This document shows positions 21,562 through 28,816 of a DNA stretch of 64,000 nucleotides, one piece after another. The notes beneath the pieces are model-generated. The model did not search any database, was not told the origin of the DNA, and saw nothing but the letters and a program-made list of their open reading frames with translations. Origin of the DNA: Bradyrhizobium sp. SRS-191. GTDB taxonomy: Bacteria; Pseudomonadota; Alphaproteobacteria; Rhizobiales; Xanthobacteraceae. Position 1 is the stretch's first letter. Each line of letters starts with the position of its first letter. A program made the position numbers and the translations under genes. Location of the stretch: assembly GCF_024586915.1 (NCBI RefSeq), contig NZ_JANBVS010000023.1, positions 1-64,000 on the forward strand. The letters run 5' to 3'.

Positions 21562-23166
21562 TCAATGCACCCTGGTCTCGGCCTCTTCGCTCATCTGCTC
21601 GGTGCCGCCGCCGCAGGCCATCGCCTGCGCCTGCTGCGGTCCGGTCAGCTTGCGATTATGGCTGGTCTTCCATTCGATCTTGCCGGGATCGGCGCGCTTG
21701 CGCGAGTTGTCGAAACCGAAATCGACCTTGCCCTTGGATTGCGGTCCCCAATAATTGACGCGGCCGAGATCGTAGAACTTACGCTCGAAGCCGGACTTCA
21801 GGAACGCCTTGAGGCAACCGAGCAGATAACGCCGGCGCTCGCCGGAGCCGGCCCAGGGATACGAGAACAGCGCCTTGTGCATGTAGAAGCGCCGGTAGTT
21901 GTTCATGACGCCGTCGAGCAGCTCGCCGCGGTCCATCGCGTCGGGCTTCATGATCGGGGTGACGAAATTGTACTTCTCGTAGTCGAAGATCTCGACCTTG
22001 TCGCCGAGGTCGCGGAACAGGTCGGAGAACGGCCATGGCGTGTACATCGCCCAATTGGCGAGGTCCGGCTTCCAGTCGCGCGCCATCTGGTAGGTCTCTT
22101 CCAGGGTCTCGCGGGTCTCGTTCTCCAGCCCGACGATGAACTGCGCCTCGACCACGATGCCGGCGTCGCGCAAGAGCTGGATCGCCTTCTTGTTCTGCGC
22201 GACCGTGGTCTCCTTGTTGAAGCGGTCGAGCTTCATCTGCGCGGCGGCTTCGGTGCCGAGCGAGACGTGGATCAGACCCGCCTTTCGATACAGCGGCAGC
22301 AGCGCCTCGTCGCGCAGGATATCGGTGACGCGGGTGTTGATGCCCCAGAGGATCTTGAGATCGCGGCGGATCAGCTCCTCGCAGAACGCGACGAATTTCT
22401 TCTTGTTGATGGTCGGCTCCTCGTCGGCGAGGATGAAGAAGCCGACATCGTGCTCGCGCATCAGGGTCTCGATCTCGTCGACCACCTTCTTCGGGTCGCG
22501 GATGCGATAGTCGCGCCAGAACTTCCACTGCGAACAGAAGCTGCAGGTGAACGGACAACCGCGCGCCATGTTCGGGATCGCCACGCGCTTGTTCATCGGG
22601 ATGTAGATGTACTTGCTCCATTCGAGCACGCTCCAGTCGGGCGTGATCGCATCGAGATTCTTCACCGTCGGCGCCGCGACGGTTGCCACGACCTCACTGC
22701 CGTCGCGATAGGCGATGCCCTTGATGCTGCGGCGGTCGCTGTCCCAGCGGCCGTCCTCGCGGGCCCGCATCAAATCGACGATGATCTCCTCGCCCTCGCC
22801 GCGCACGATGGCGTCGATCCATGGCGCTTCGGTCAGCACCTGCTGATACATGAAGGTGGCGTGGATGCCGCCGAGCACGGTGAGCGCGTCCGGATGTTCG
22901 TCCCTGGCGATCTCCAGCAGCCGCTCGGCCTTGTAGATCGAGGGCGTGATCGCGGTGCAGCCGATCACATCGGGCTTCTCAGTGCGCAGGATGCTGCGGA
23001 CCTGCTCCTCGGAGAGATCGTTGGTCATCGCGTCGATGAAGCGGAGGTCGGTGAATCCGGCCGCCTTCAGCGCGCCGGAAATATAGGCCGCCCAGGCTGG
23101 CGGCCAGTTTCCGGCGATCTCGGCACCGCCGGAGTGATAATTCGGATGCAGCAACAAAATCCGCAC
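21562..23166 (-). CDS. bchE: BchE, oxygen-independent Mg-protoporphyrin IX monomethyl ester cyclase
   Basis: A radical-SAM/cobalamin enzyme (534 aa) that forms the isocyclic ring using water-derived oxygen. The N-terminal B12-binding region starts [23 protein letters not shown]. The [4Fe-4S] motif GCPFTCSFC (CxxxCxxC) lies near residues 203-211, followed by radical SAM strands ([25 protein letters not shown]). It is the low-oxygen counterpart of acsF about 2.4 kb upstream. The upstream gap carries a FixK-type box and PpsR-like dyads, consistent with anaerobic induction. Confidence 0.97.
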
Positions 23167-23265: not shown

Positions 23266-24477
23266 TCAGGCCGCCAGGGCGAGACCCATCTCGGCCCAGA
23301 TCTCCGAGAGCGCCGACACCAGGTGCTCGATATCGGCATCGGAGTGATAGGGCGACGGGGTGATGCGCAGCCGCTCGGTGCCGCGCGGCACCGTCGGGTA
23401 GTTGATCGGCTGCACGTAGATGCCGTAGCGATCGAGCAGGATATCGCTGATGCGCTTGCACAGCACGGCATCGCGCACCATCACCGGCACGATGTGGCTG
23501 GGATTGTCGAGATGGCTGACTCCCGCTTCATCCAGACGGCGGCGCAGCCGCGCGACACGGTCCTGATGGCGCGCGCGCTCGACATTGCTGCCCTTCAGAT
23601 GCCGGATGCTGGTGAGCGCGCCGGCCGCCACCGCCGGAGGCAGCGAGCTGGAGAAGATGAAGCCGGAGGCGAAGCTGCGGACGAAGTCGCAGACGGTGTT
23701 GGAGGCCGTGATGTAGCCGCCGATGACGCCGAACGCCTTGGCCAGCGTGCCCTCGATGACGGTCAGCCGGTCCGCGACGCCGTCGCGCTCGGAGATGCCG
23801 CCGCCGCGCGGGCCGTACAGGCCGACAGCATGGACCTCGTCGAGGTAGGTCAGCGCGTTGTATTCGTCGGCGACGTCGCAGATGTCCGAGATCGGCGAGA
23901 TGTCGCCATCCATCGAGTACACGCTCTCGAAGGCGATCAGCTTCGGCACCTTCGGGTCGAGGTCGGACAGCTTGTCCCGGAGATCGGCGACGTCGTTGTG
24001 GCGCCAGATCCTTGTCTCGCAGCGGCTGTGGCGGATGCCCTCGATCATCGAGGCATGGTTGAGCTCGTCGGACAGGATCACGCAGCCGGGCATGCGCGCC
24101 GCCAAGGTCGACAGCGAGGTCCAGTTCGAGACGTAGCCGGAGTTGAACAAGAGTGCCGCCTGCTTGCCGTGGAGATCGGCGAGCTCCTCCTCGAGCAGGA
24201 TGTGATAATGGTTGGTGCCGCTGATGTTGCGGGTGCCGCCGGCGCCGGCGCCGCAGCGGTCGAGCGCCTCGTGCATCACCTCCAGCACCTTGGGATGCTG
24301 GCCCATGCCGAGATAGTCGTTGGAGCACCACACCGCGACGTCACGCTCGCCATGCGGACCGCGATAGGTCGCGATCGGGAAGGCTCCCGCCTTGCGCTCG
24401 AGATCGGCGAACACGCGATAGCGTCCTTCGCGCCTCAGGCCGTCGAGCTGGCGGCGGAAATAGTCTTCGTAGTTCAT
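23266..24477 (-). CDS. hemA: 5-aminolevulinate synthase
   Basis: A PLP enzyme (403 aa) that condenses glycine and succinyl-CoA, the first step of tetrapyrrole synthesis in alphaproteobacteria. Motifs are [13 protein letters not shown], the glycine-rich [28 protein letters not shown] and the Schiff-base Lys near 247 in [13 protein letters not shown]. The ATG overlaps the puhE stop by 4 bp, so it ends the bchF-hemA operon. A longer open frame upstream of the ATG is the shadow of puhE. This is presumably a photosynthesis-dedicated copy. Confidence 0.97.
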
Positions 24478-25511
24478 GGTACTCCCCCCTGTGCTGTCGT
24501 GTTCGGATCGACTCCGGTTGCGATGGATGCGGTCAATCCGGTGATGGTTTGCGCCTGCGCGTCGGCGCGAGACTGGCGATAGGCCTGGCGAAACTGTTCT
24601 TCCAGCCGCTGCCGCGCCAAGGCGGCGGCCGTCTTCTGCGCCGACATGGGGCGCGCCGCCTGCGGCGGAGCCGGCACGACCGCGAGCACCGGCCGCGCCA
24701 ACGGCGTCACCGGCGCGGGCAGGCCTGCGGGAGAGGCCGCGACCGTCGCCATGGCGGGCTCGGCCGGCGCGCTCCAGCGCCACATGTTGATGACGGGCAT
24801 CGGCAGCGCCATGAAGCCGTGTTCGAGCAGGCCCAGCGCGATCAACGATGCCAACAGCGACAGCGCGACGCCGTCGAAGGTCGATTTGGCACCTAGCGCC
24901 GCGGCGGCGACCAGCACCGTGGCGGCTGTGGCGCCGGCGATCGAAAACGGAAACAGCAGGTTGATCGACTTCTTGGCGAAGTAGCTGCGCATGAAGCGCA
25001 CCTGCTGCGGCAGCAGCTCGTCGTTCAGGGTGCGCACGCCGAGGAACAAATTGATCTTCGCGCTTTGCCTGAGCACCAGCAGTGCAGCGAAGGTCCACCA
25101 GCTCAGACGGTTCGGCGCGCCCGACGTCACCGCGAAGACGAGACCCGCCGTCGCGATCAGCGCCAGCTCGTGATAGGCGATCGCCTGCAGCGCGAAGCCG
25201 ACGCGCGAGGCCGGCGTGCAATCCCGCGGACAGGGCTCGGGCCGCGGCCCAGTGATCCAGCCGGCGAGCAGCGACATCTCCACCGTGCCCCACAGCAGGA
25301 TGGCGCAGGTGAAGGCGCAATAGGCATTGGCGTCCTCGGCGGCCTGGCTGGACACCGCGACGCCGGACAGGGCCGCGACGAAGGCCGCGGCCGTGCCCCA
25401 TTTGAACGCGGCCGGATAACGGGCGGCGAGCCCGACCAGCGCCAGCACGGCGCCGGTCGAGAACCACCAGACGAACACGACATAGGGAATGGCAATCGCG
25501 GTCGCGCCCAT
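24474..25511 (-). CDS. puhE: PuhE, photosynthetic complex assembly membrane protein
   Basis: A polytopic membrane protein (345 aa) with about seven hydrophobic segments, starting [20 protein letters not shown]. The conserved [22 protein letters not shown] region identifies PuhE (Orf274 of Rhodobacter), which affects reaction centre/LH1 levels. It has a ~90-residue Ala/Pro/Gln-rich hydrophilic C-terminal tail longer than the classic protein. It lies 13 bp after acsF and is coupled to hemA. Confidence 0.9.
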
Positions 25512-25524
25512 GGCCGGCTCCTTG

Positions 25525-26586
25525 TCACCAGGCGGGTTGCAGCCTGATCTCCCGTGGCAGCGCGTTGCTCTTGGCCGGCAGCAGATACAGCCGGCCGAAG
25601 GTCAGCGCCGCCTTGAGCGGCAGCACGGCACGCTTGATCGTGCCCATGATGCCGCCCTGTGCCTTGGCATCGGCAATCGCTTCCGAAATCTCGCGCAACC
25701 GCTTCAAGCCTTCCCAGAAGCGCGGATTGTCGATGTCGAGCATGACCGGGAAGACCTGGCGCGAAATCTCCGAGGTGATGCGGAATACCCGCATGTCGTA
25801 CTCGTCGACCGGCATGCCCAACGCCTCGTAGAAGGCGGGGCGCATGTGGTCGCGGACATGCATGGTGGCGAACACCGCGAGCAGGAAGAACTTGATCCAG
25901 AGCTTGTTGAGCCCGCTCAGGAGCTTCGGATCGGCGCGCATCAGGAGCGCGAACGCCTCGCCGTGGCGGAACTCGTCGTTGCACCACCGCTCGAACCACT
26001 TGAAGATCGGGTGGAACTGGCGCTCCGGATGCCGCTCCATCTGGCGATAGATGGTGATGTAGCGGGCGTAGCCGATCTTCTCCGACAGATAGGTCGCGTA
26101 GAAGATGAACTTCGGCCTGAAGTAGGTGTACTTCTTTGTCTTGGTCAGGAAGCTCAGGTCGACGCCGATGCCGTGATCCTTGAGGATTTCGTTGATGAAA
26201 CCGGCGTGGCGGGCCTCGTCGCGGCTCATGAACTGGAACAGCTCGCGGATGTCGGGGTTGGTGATCCGCTTCTTGATCTCGGCATAGAGCACGCAGCCGG
26301 AGAATTCAGCGGTCAAGGACGACACCAGGAAGTCCTTGAACTCGGCGCGAAGCGCCTCCGGCAGCTCGTTGAGATCCTTGTCGAACTCCGGCGTGCGCAC
26401 GAAGTGCTTGCGGTTGTGGTCGGCGCGCAGTTCGGCCATCACAGCATCCCATTCGCGGCGCACCAGGTCGACATTGAGCCGGTCCATCGCCGCGAAGTCG
26501 GTGGTGTAGAAGCGCGGCGTGAGGATCGTATCCTCCAGCGCCATCTTGGTGGAGATATTGCCGGATCCGCCTTCCATTGCGATCAT
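25525..26586 (-). CDS. acsF: AcsF, aerobic Mg-protoporphyrin IX monomethyl ester oxidative cyclase
   Basis: A diiron monooxygenase subunit (353 aa) that closes the isocyclic ring with O2. Ferritin-like iron ligands are seen in [20 protein letters not shown] and [16 protein letters not shown]. It is the aerobic alternative to bchE in the same window, fitting an organism that makes pigment in air. Its ATG overlaps the upstream small gene by 4 bp. Some bacteria need a BciE/Ycf54 partner; I see no recognisable one here, though the adjacent 101-aa gene is worth testing. Confidence 0.96.
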
Positions 26587-26888
26587 CTGACCCTCCCGTC
26601 CGAAAAGCTGACGTCGTACAATTCCGTGAGTTCGAGATAGCCCGCGACATGCATCATCATGCGCTTCAGCGGCCCTGCCCGGACCACGGTCGCGGTGCGC
26701 CGCAGGTTGAGCTGCTCGCCGAACTTGACCGTGATCGGGTCACCATGAATGACCACCTCGTCGCCCGGGCGGATGCCGACGTCACGGTCGAGCGTGACAT
26801 GGGCATGCAGGGACTCGGAGGTCTGCTCGACCTCGATGCTGCAGCCGATGTTGAAGCTGCGGGGCTCGTTGGCCCATAATCCTCTCAT
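26583..26888 (-). CDS. Uncharacterised protein between puhC and acsF (101 aa)
   Basis: A small soluble protein, predicted beta-rich, with no signal peptide or membrane segment. It starts [20 protein letters not shown] and contains [22 protein letters not shown]. It is coupled at both ends by 4-bp overlaps (with puhC and acsF), so it is clearly translated with the photosynthesis genes. It occupies the slot of puhD in Rhodobacter but lacks PuhD's hydrophobic character. I recognise no family. A link to AcsF or reaction-centre assembly is inference from position. Confidence 0.8.
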
Positions 26889-27376
26889 CGCGTTTCTCCC
26901 ATCGTCATCAGCTCCGTGAACCGGCGCTTGCTGTCGTTGCCGAACGGCCCGAGATCGACGCGCCGTCCGGTCGACGGATCGTCCAGGCTCATGCGGCCGT
27001 CGGCCCAGCGATTGATCGTAAAGGCCGGCCCCGAGCCGATCGCGTGACGCTGGCGGTCGAACGCCATGCTGCGCAGGACCGTGCGCAGCAGGCCGTCGCC
27101 GCCGGCCTCGACGATTCCGACGACCTTGCCGCTGTCGGGCGACACGACGGAGATGCCGCCGTCGGGACGGTCGACGAAGCGCAGCGCCACGGTCTGCACG
27201 GCGGCGACGTGATCGGTGTGGACGGTGCCTACGCCCGTCCAGCGGCCGGCGCCGGCTGCGACCAGGGAGAAAATGACCAGCGCGAAGGCCGCGCGCAGCG
27301 CGCCCTTCGGAATGACGATCTCAGGTTCGGCGTGAACATCGACATGACGTCCGACATGGCCCTCCGCTTGGCTCAT
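26885..27376 (-). CDS. puhC: PuhC, photosynthetic complex assembly protein
   Basis: A 163-aa protein with one membrane anchor (residues ~26-45, ALRAAFALVIFSLVAAGAG) and a periplasmic domain containing ALRFVDRPDGGISVVSPDSG and INRWADGRMSLDDP. PuhC assists reorganisation of the reaction centre-LH1 core. The ATG at 27376 (MSQAEGHVGRH) has a GAGGAGGG ribosome binding site. It starts 10 bp after puhB and overlaps the next gene by 4 bp. Confidence 0.93.
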   Translation of the reverse strand: MSQAEGHVGRHVDVHAEPEIVIPKGALRAAFALVIFSLVAAGAGRWTGVGTVHTDHVAAVQTVALRFVDRPDGGISVVSPDSGKVVGIVEAGGDGLLRTVLRSMAFDRQRHAIGSGPAFTINRWADGRMSLDDPSTGRRVDLGPFGNDSKRRFTELMTMGETR

Positions 27377-27386
27377 GACACCCTCC

Positions 27387-28040
27387 TCACGCCGCGCTGG
27401 CGACAGCGCCCGCAGGCGACGCGCCTTGCGGCTGTCCATTGCCCGCGGCGATCGGCTGCGCCGCCACCGCGCCATCCGAGGCCGCGACCAGCGCCTTGGC
27501 GAGGATCTCGGCCGCTTCGCGGGCGTTCGCCACGCCGCGCAGCATCGGCTCGACCTCGTTCAGCCGCCAGGGACGCGCATGCGGCCACAGCAGCAGATAG
27601 GACAGCCGCTGCTGGGCGGTGACGCTGAGCGGCAGATCGCCGGAGCCGTCGGAGAACAGCTTCACGTCGGCGCGCGAGACCTGCTTGAACGGCACGTTCA
27701 AGGTCATCGGCAGCACCGCGCCGAACTGCAACAGGACGCGGCGGCTGGTGATGGTGTAGCGCGTGGTACGGCTGTAAAGCACCGCGAGCCCGGTGAGCAA
27801 CACCGTCGCGATCGCCACCGGCATCACCAGCGACGACGCGCTGGCGAGCGAGGCCGCGAGCGGCTGGTGGTCCAGCATGCCCGTCACCACGCGCGCGCCG
27901 AACAGCGCGGCGAAGTAGGCGAGCACCAGGCGCAGGTGGAAGACGCGCAGCAGCAGCGCCTTCACCGTGGGCTGTCCCTGCCAGAGCAGGCGCTCGCCTG
28001 CCGGCAGCATCAGCTGATCCTGGTCCCGACGCGTGCTCAC
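27387..28040 (-). CDS. puhB: PuhB, reaction centre assembly protein
   Basis: A 217-aa membrane protein with a bacterial PH-like domain. Transmembrane segments lie around RLVLAYFAALFGARVV and LVMPVAIATVLLTGLAVLYS, then SRTTRYTITSRRVLLQFGA. PuhB is needed for reaction centre assembly. I chose the GTG start at 28040, which overlaps the puhA stop as GTGA and has a GGAG ribosome binding site; a longer frame into puhA is not credible. The C-terminus is Ala/Gly-rich. Confidence 0.92.
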   Translation of the reverse strand: MSTRRDQDQLMLPAGERLLWQGQPTVKALLLRVFHLRLVLAYFAALFGARVVTGMLDHQPLAASLASASSLVMPVAIATVLLTGLAVLYSRTTRYTITSRRVLLQFGAVLPMTLNVPFKQVSRADVKLFSDGSGDLPLSVTAQQRLSYLLLWPHARPWRLNEVEPMLRGVANAREAAEILAKALVAASDGAVAAQPIAAGNGQPQGASPAGAVASAA

Positions 28041-28816
28041 AGCAGCGGCTCCTGGCGCGCAGCGGTCGCATAGAGGTGTCCGCCGCCATAGTAGCCGACG
28101 ATCTTGTCCTCCTCGAGCTTCGTCACCTGATCGGGCTTCGCGAGGCCGGGCACGTTGGCGAATTGCGAGCCGAGGATGGCATCGACGAGCACCGCCTTGC
28201 GCGACTTGTCGACGACGCACATGGTCATCGGCAGCAGCACGTGACGTCCGACGATGCCGTCGACCTCGACTTCGAGATAGCGGATCAGCATCTCGGCGCG
28301 GTCGACCCAGACTTCGCGGATCTTGCCGCCGAGCCTGCCATCACAGCCGAACACCGGCATGCCGCGCGGATCCGGATCTTCCGTGGCGATGAAGATGCTG
28401 CCGTCGACGCGCAGCGGCACGATCGCCGGGATGTTGTCCATGGTCAGCTCCGGCTCGTCCTTGCGCGCGGCGAAGGAGCCCGGTCCGACGCCGTCAAGCA
28501 TCGGATTGCCGGTCGGCAGATACGGCGTGCCCGGCCAGGCATACATCGGCGTGACCGGCGCATCGGCGCGATCGTTGTCCCAATTCGGCAGGGTCGCGGT
28601 GCGGCCGCCATGCATGTGATAGGTCTTCGGGCTCGGCGGCGTCGGGAAGCCGTTGCCGCTCGAAGGGACCTGCCGGCCGATCCGGCCCTCGAACTGCAGC
28701 GGATAGCCTTCGCGCTTGTCCTCGGTGCGCAGGTAGAAGATCAGGCCTGCGAAGAATATCCAAAAGCCGTAAAGCACGACCTGGGCGACATCGATGTAGC
28801 TCGTGAAAGACGTCAT
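28037..28816 (-). CDS. puhA: Photosynthetic reaction centre H subunit
   Basis: The H subunit (259 aa), which caps the L/M core on the cytoplasmic side and helps proton delivery to QB. It has one N-terminal transmembrane helix (YIDVAQVVLYGFWIFFAGLIFYL region) followed by the PRC-barrel cytoplasmic domain (FIATEDPDPRGMPVFGCDG, VDGIVGRHVLLPMTMCVVD). It starts MTSFTSYIDVAQ. It begins 20 bp after lhaA and is coupled to puhB. Confidence 0.97.
   Translation of the reverse strand: MTSFTSYIDVAQVVLYGFWIFFAGLIFYLRTEDKREGYPLQFEGRIGRQVPSSGNGFPTPPSPKTYHMHGGRTATLPNWDNDRADAPVTPMYAWPGTPYLPTGNPMLDGVGPGSFAARKDEPELTMDNIPAIVPLRVDGSIFIATEDPDPRGMPVFGCDGRLGGKIREVWVDRAEMLIRYLEVEVDGIVGRHVLLPMTMCVVDKSRKAVLVDAILGSQFANVPGLAKPDQVTKLEEDKIVGYYGGGHLYATAARQEPLL

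Follow-up and report, generated by a model that had tools for sequence, protein, structure and literature searches.

The window analyzed here, a stretch of 64,000 nucleotides from Bradyrhizobium sp. SRS-191, carries a photosynthesis gene cluster in which a short open reading frame separates puhC from acsF on the minus strand. This ORF (26583..26888) starts with ATG and encodes 101 amino acids. On its 5' side lie, on the same strand, puhA coding for reaction centre subunit H (28037..28816; TIGR01150, 346.8 bits, above cut-off), puhB (27387..28010, from the plausible, provisional start MLPAGERL; NF040894, 191.5 bits, above cut-off) and puhC (26885..27376; TIGR03054, 142 bits for a cut-off of 55), whose product has 163 amino acids from the inferred likely start MSQAEGH within a longest ORF beginning at 27475. 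On its 3' side, acsF (25525..26586; TIGR02029, 499.8 bits for a cut-off of 192.5) gives the single match in its genome and is thus its sole acsF. It is followed, again on the minus strand, by puhE (24474..25511; TIGR03055, 244.6 bits, above cut-off) and by bchE (21562..23166; TIGR02026, 818.8 bits), encoding the O2-independent cyclase that performs the same ring closure as AcsF. The identities that the original prediction gave to puhC, acsF and the reaction-centre genes are therefore borne out by family models above cut-off. The window has no match in Rfam. The presence of acsF and bchE in one cluster implies that Bradyrhizobium sp. SRS-191 possesses both routes of ring E closure, and bchE beside acsF fits the PGC1 type with bchEJ known, from passages of a published study, in photosynthetic Bradyrhizobium (PMC10569730).

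The ORF coordinates confirm a 101-aa gene locked between its two neighbours by 4-bp overlaps at both ends, as had been proposed. The puhC ORF, whose end is at 26885, shares an ATGA (26885..26888, minus strand) between its stop and the start of the ORF; the acsF ORF starts at 26586 and a second ATGA (26583..26586, minus strand) is common to the stop of the ORF and the start of acsF. Two Shine-Dalgarno-like motifs can be read on the same strand: GGGAGA (26895..26900), located 6 bases 5' of the ATG of the ORF, and GGGAGGG (26591..26597), located within the ORF 4 bases 5' of the acsF ATG. Among 129 distinct junctions between homologues of this gene and acsF, a 4-bp overlap with the acsF start is available in 126 (87 ATGA, 36 GTGA and 3 TTGA), a count that is partly forced by the reading frame for an overlap with a TGA stop and that may include GTGA and TTGA starts which are not used. 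The remaining junctions consist of two 1-bp overlaps and one short gap. The overlaps suggest that puhC, the ORF and acsF may be translationally coupled.

The slot occupied by the ORF has already received a name. Since passages of a published study give the operon order puhA-puhBC-bciE-acsF-puhE, the slot can be identified as bciE, and the gene of the window lies precisely between puhC and acsF (PMC10576062). The same passages make the term 'uncharacterised' used in the original prediction untenable, and they displace its idea of a role played by BciE elsewhere, as the gene occupies the published bciE slot itself (PMC10576062). Passages in three papers state that alphaproteobacterial AcsF requires BciE, and the literature consulted includes PMC7319587, PMC13297055, PMC7242693 and PMC6052148, and further PMC10443036, PMC7844134 and PMC4944227. 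In Dinoroseobacter shibae, a gene labelled 'hyp' of fewer than 100 amino acids lies between puhC and acsF, in the bciE slot. On nine named plasmids the homologue is labelled 'hypothetical protein' in every case, and the three plasmid records viewed in context place it between puhC and acsF. Homology to the bench-tested BciE of Rhodobacter sphaeroides is indirect: it runs via the slot and via relatives found in the same slot in Roseobacter and Roseinatronobacter (Paracoccaceae), whose proteins share, respectively, 37% and 34% identity with that of the window. BciE was reportedly named in a founding PNAS paper of 2017, to which the other papers refer. The ORF list, the slot, the family and co-divergence with AcsF, presented below, all enter the assignment. 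We conclude, via the slot and the relatives, that the 101-aa ORF is very probably bciE, encoding a helper of the O2-dependent cyclase AcsF in the formation of ring E, the fifth ring of bacteriochlorophyll; it is almost certainly an ordinary copy of that gene left unnamed by automatic annotation. This closes an annotation gap, as the database records examined give a required cyclase subunit the label 'hypothetical protein'.

The distribution of bciE follows that of acsF. In a set of 385 alphaproteobacterial genomes, 27 carry an acsF scoring above cut-off. The BciE profile, for which up to 12 candidates were scored per genome, matched 23 genomes, all included in these 27 (Fisher p 3e-33). The check offered with the original prediction, namely presence of the gene only in acsF-bearing genomes, turned out in its favour since BciE, scored in this way, was found in 0 of the 358 acsF-negative alphaproteobacterial genomes. 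Each of the 23 bciE genes immediately precedes acsF in the same orientation; in genome G198 the neighbour is an acsF fragment located at the end of a contig. Within 100 near relatives, a BciE match with an E-value of 1.1e-20 or better occurred in 15, own genome included, and the same 15 carry acsF; four weaker rows (L016-L019; E 3.6e-4 to 7.9e-4) fell in frames of 676-865 amino acids and were dropped as unrelated. A sample of 398 genomes at the phylum level gave acsF matches in 32, one of them (G694) below cut-off. The BciE search covered these 32 genomes (8 + 20 alphaproteobacterial and 4 others), rows with E >0.02 being dropped as unrelated, and found BciE in 28/28 alphaproteobacterial genomes; it was absent from three genomes outside the class (G497, G699 and G806) and from G694, all four giving only rows with E-values of 0.03 or worse. 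In a scan of genome contigs, at least 568 stretches encode a BciE relative, and in each of the best 80 of them the homologue immediately precedes an acsF of the same orientation.

Four of the 27 alphaproteobacterial acsF genomes (G164, G190, G222 and G227) lack BciE: their clusters comprise puhA, puhB, puhC, acsF and puhE with no BciE ORF between puhC and acsF. The same combination, acsF with no BciE match at E-values up to 10, recurs in five genomes from the genus to which G227 belongs. Because of these 4/27 genomes, the requirement for BciE is not universal in Alphaproteobacteria. Two records encountered during these searches deserve separate mention. A record named 'Frankia sp. RB7' (L028 4001-4300) carries a Bradyrhizobium-type photosynthesis cluster whose AcsF groups with those of bradyrhizobia; it is probably misnamed or mixed. 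A plasmid of Sulfitobacter sp. THAF37 (L201 4001-4744) contains an unannotated acsF piece devoid of about 106 N-terminal residues, accompanied by puhE and hemA and without bciE, a decaying photosynthesis cluster.

Family searches of the ORF and of 18 BciE members returned nothing above cut-off in Pfam or in NCBIfam, and the ORF had no match above cut-off in PHROGs. When the Pfam scan of the 18 members was extended to E-values up to 1, eight families were listed, all of them weak. The FeoA/SH3-like domain family was rejected, as FeoA scored 16.4 bits for a cut-off of 23 in 1/18 members only; membership of the PuhC, PuhB or PuhE families was also set aside, the NCBIfam models giving the ORF only a 0.11 chance match. 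Against PDB sequences, the best match of the BciE profile was ribosomal protein S1 (E 0.019, above no cut-off) and AcsF found no relative (best E 0.15). A structure model built from 32 sequences (mean pLDDT 74, pTM 0.60) contains four strands and one helix; it is of middling confidence and its C-terminal end is unsure, with the last 14 residues at pLDDT <50. Foldseek produced no match to this model at E-values up to 0.001, and the best VIA-align match, to phage tailspike domains (Z 4.2), was taken as a common barrel/sheet arrangement rather than as kinship. In viral contigs BciE was absent, and a cyanobacterial AcsF query gave no match there either. The protein had been described as soluble, which agrees with a GRAVY of -0.24 and with the lack of a long helix in the model.

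Five residues, Cys16, Gly42, Asp43, Leu90 and Phe95, are invariant in 129/129 rows of the BciE family set, which counts the window protein twice. The conservation of Cys16 throughout, together with a need of the AcsF reaction for an electron donor (indicated in the literature) and with a few flavin-binding NADPH-oxidase domains appearing among weak structural matches (Z 2.5-3.0), could be read as the signature of a redox partner handing electrons to the AcsF diiron site. However, these structural matches are at noise level, no redox family of Pfam or NCBIfam is matched, and in the BciE-less enzymes electrons must reach AcsF without BciE. We consider such a redox function improbable. As the family possesses a single invariant cysteine and no recognizable cofactor motif, a structural or loading role of BciE would be likelier than electron carrying.

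The position of bciE inside the puh operon, with its 4-base overlap with puhC, could also denote a factor for the assembly of the reaction centre or light-harvesting complexes, i.e. a further Puh protein merely encoded next to acsF. Co-divergence was used to compare these partners. Out of 89 loci containing bciE, acsF, puhC, puhB, puhA and puhE, 32 representatives with AcsF <85% identical were retained. The partial correlation of pairwise distances between BciE and AcsF was 0.60 (bootstrap 0.41-0.74; 32 representatives), and AcsF had the largest partial correlation with BciE in 1000/1000 resamples. The values obtained with PuhC, PuhB, PuhA and PuhE lay between -0.13 and 0. PuhC constitutes a fair control for mere linkage because its gene overlaps bciE on the other side, and its correlation with BciE is nevertheless close to zero. 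Moreover, the four alphaproteobacterial clusters without bciE retain puhA, puhB, puhC and puhE, and a Thiodictyon plasmid displays the order puhA-puhB-puhC-puhE-bchE with neither an acsF nor a BciE match on the plasmid itself. An assembly function, which the original prediction had listed as its alternative, is disfavoured by these observations and appears very unlikely, whereas its first proposal of an AcsF partner is strongly supported by both co-occurrence and co-divergence with AcsF.

Compared with its nearest relative, bciE differs at 23, 19 and 44 first, second and third codon positions with a dN/dS of ~0.25, and for this reason the ORF is under purifying selection. That it would be a chance open frame in GC-rich DNA and no gene has practically no probability left: the opposite strand is indeed also open (100-aa frame, 26577..26879, plus strand), but the excess of third-position differences and the low dN/dS do not suit a chance frame, and the conservation of the minus-strand protein, with its homologues in at least 568 contig stretches, already refutes it.

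Having BciE as an AcsF helper raises the question of the AcsF enzymes found without it. An AcsF tree was computed from 83 sequences (71 with BciE and 12 without) comprising every fourth of 80 named loci and others. In a quick tree, 11 of the 12 BciE-less rows fall on one side of a branch with an SH-aLRT of 93, which is not a starred branch. This block, seen in the quick tree only, includes three proteobacterial genomes from outside the class; G222 (L106) stands apart, and two changes of the BciE label are needed. Grouping all 12 BciE-less rows together gave a likelihood 19.6 above that of the quick tree (AU p 0.75). In a careful tree retaining 64 of the 83 rows, the same grouping was 24.9 worse (AU p 0.074) and the starred branches force two changes; L104, L105 and L106 form long branches in the AcsF tree. 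From these sequence comparisons, membership of the BciE-dependent class seems to track the lineage of AcsF more closely than it does taxonomy, and at least one further loss of BciE is likely. The AcsF of G222, separate from the other BciE-less rows, could represent an independent loss.

A scan of all AcsF positions singled out position 252 (window AcsF numbering) as the only one fully separating the two groups, with Phe in 71/71 sequences accompanied by BciE and Leu or Met in 12/12 without it, the twelfth being the Leu of G222. In a larger AcsF set, Phe252 was present in 131/131 rows with BciE and another residue in 12/13 rows labelled as lacking it; the thirteenth (L179, Phe252) belongs to G198: it holds the acsF piece of this genome, in which bciE resides on another contig (L178). 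Shared ancestry accounts for 11 of the 12 BciE-less cases, with G222 as the only second event. We tentatively put forward, as a doubtful proposition, that whether a helper is needed depends on the lineage of AcsF itself and not on taxonomy, that Alphaproteobacteria with a BciE-less acsF mostly carry the lineage also found in BciE-less proteobacteria of other classes, that at least one more lineage (G222) lost BciE separately, and that residue 252 marks or sets the switch, Phe denoting helper-dependent and Leu or Met stand-alone enzymes. The AcsF of the cyanobacterium Kovacikia has Phe at this position (one sequence). Should the proposition hold, this cyanobacterial Phe252, in the Ycf54 class, means that a single residue could signal reliance on BciE or on Ycf54. 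A plasmid of Kovacikia minuta (L200 1001-2026) carries an acsF-like gene ~41% identical to the window AcsF.

These elements can be assembled into a putative mechanism. BciE, presumably a small beta-rich subunit, would be made just before AcsF from the overlapping genes and would bind the nascent or mature diiron AcsF, the surface around residue 252 being a candidate contact. It may then keep AcsF active and stable, a part comparable to that of Ycf54 in oxygenic phototrophs. Together BciE and AcsF would allow ring E to be closed in the presence of oxygen, alongside the O2-independent BchE of the same cluster.

The function of BciE is essentially known and the novelty of the present analysis is modest; it resides in the BciE-less alphaproteobacterial exceptions, in the co-divergence with AcsF alone and in the candidate AcsF residue. 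BciE-less alphaproteobacterial enzymes and one discriminating residue offer a testable entry into why some AcsF need a helper. With respect to known systems, BciE shares with the assembly proteins PuhB, PuhC and PuhE a common operon; these proteins match their own families above cut-off whereas BciE matches none, and they do not co-diverge with it. Ycf54 of oxygenic phototrophs resembles BciE as a small soluble protein needed by AcsF, but it is described in the literature as a four-stranded sheet with five helices, compared to four strands and one helix in the BciE model, and among the families listed at E-values up to 1 in Pfam and NCBIfam, that of Ycf54 was matched by none of the 18 BciE members. 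With BciE, the auxiliary subunit of the alphaproteobacterial cyclase, no difference emerged among the features compared, and the likeness encompasses the slot between puhC and acsF, the alphaproteobacterial distribution, the small size and the tie to acsF.
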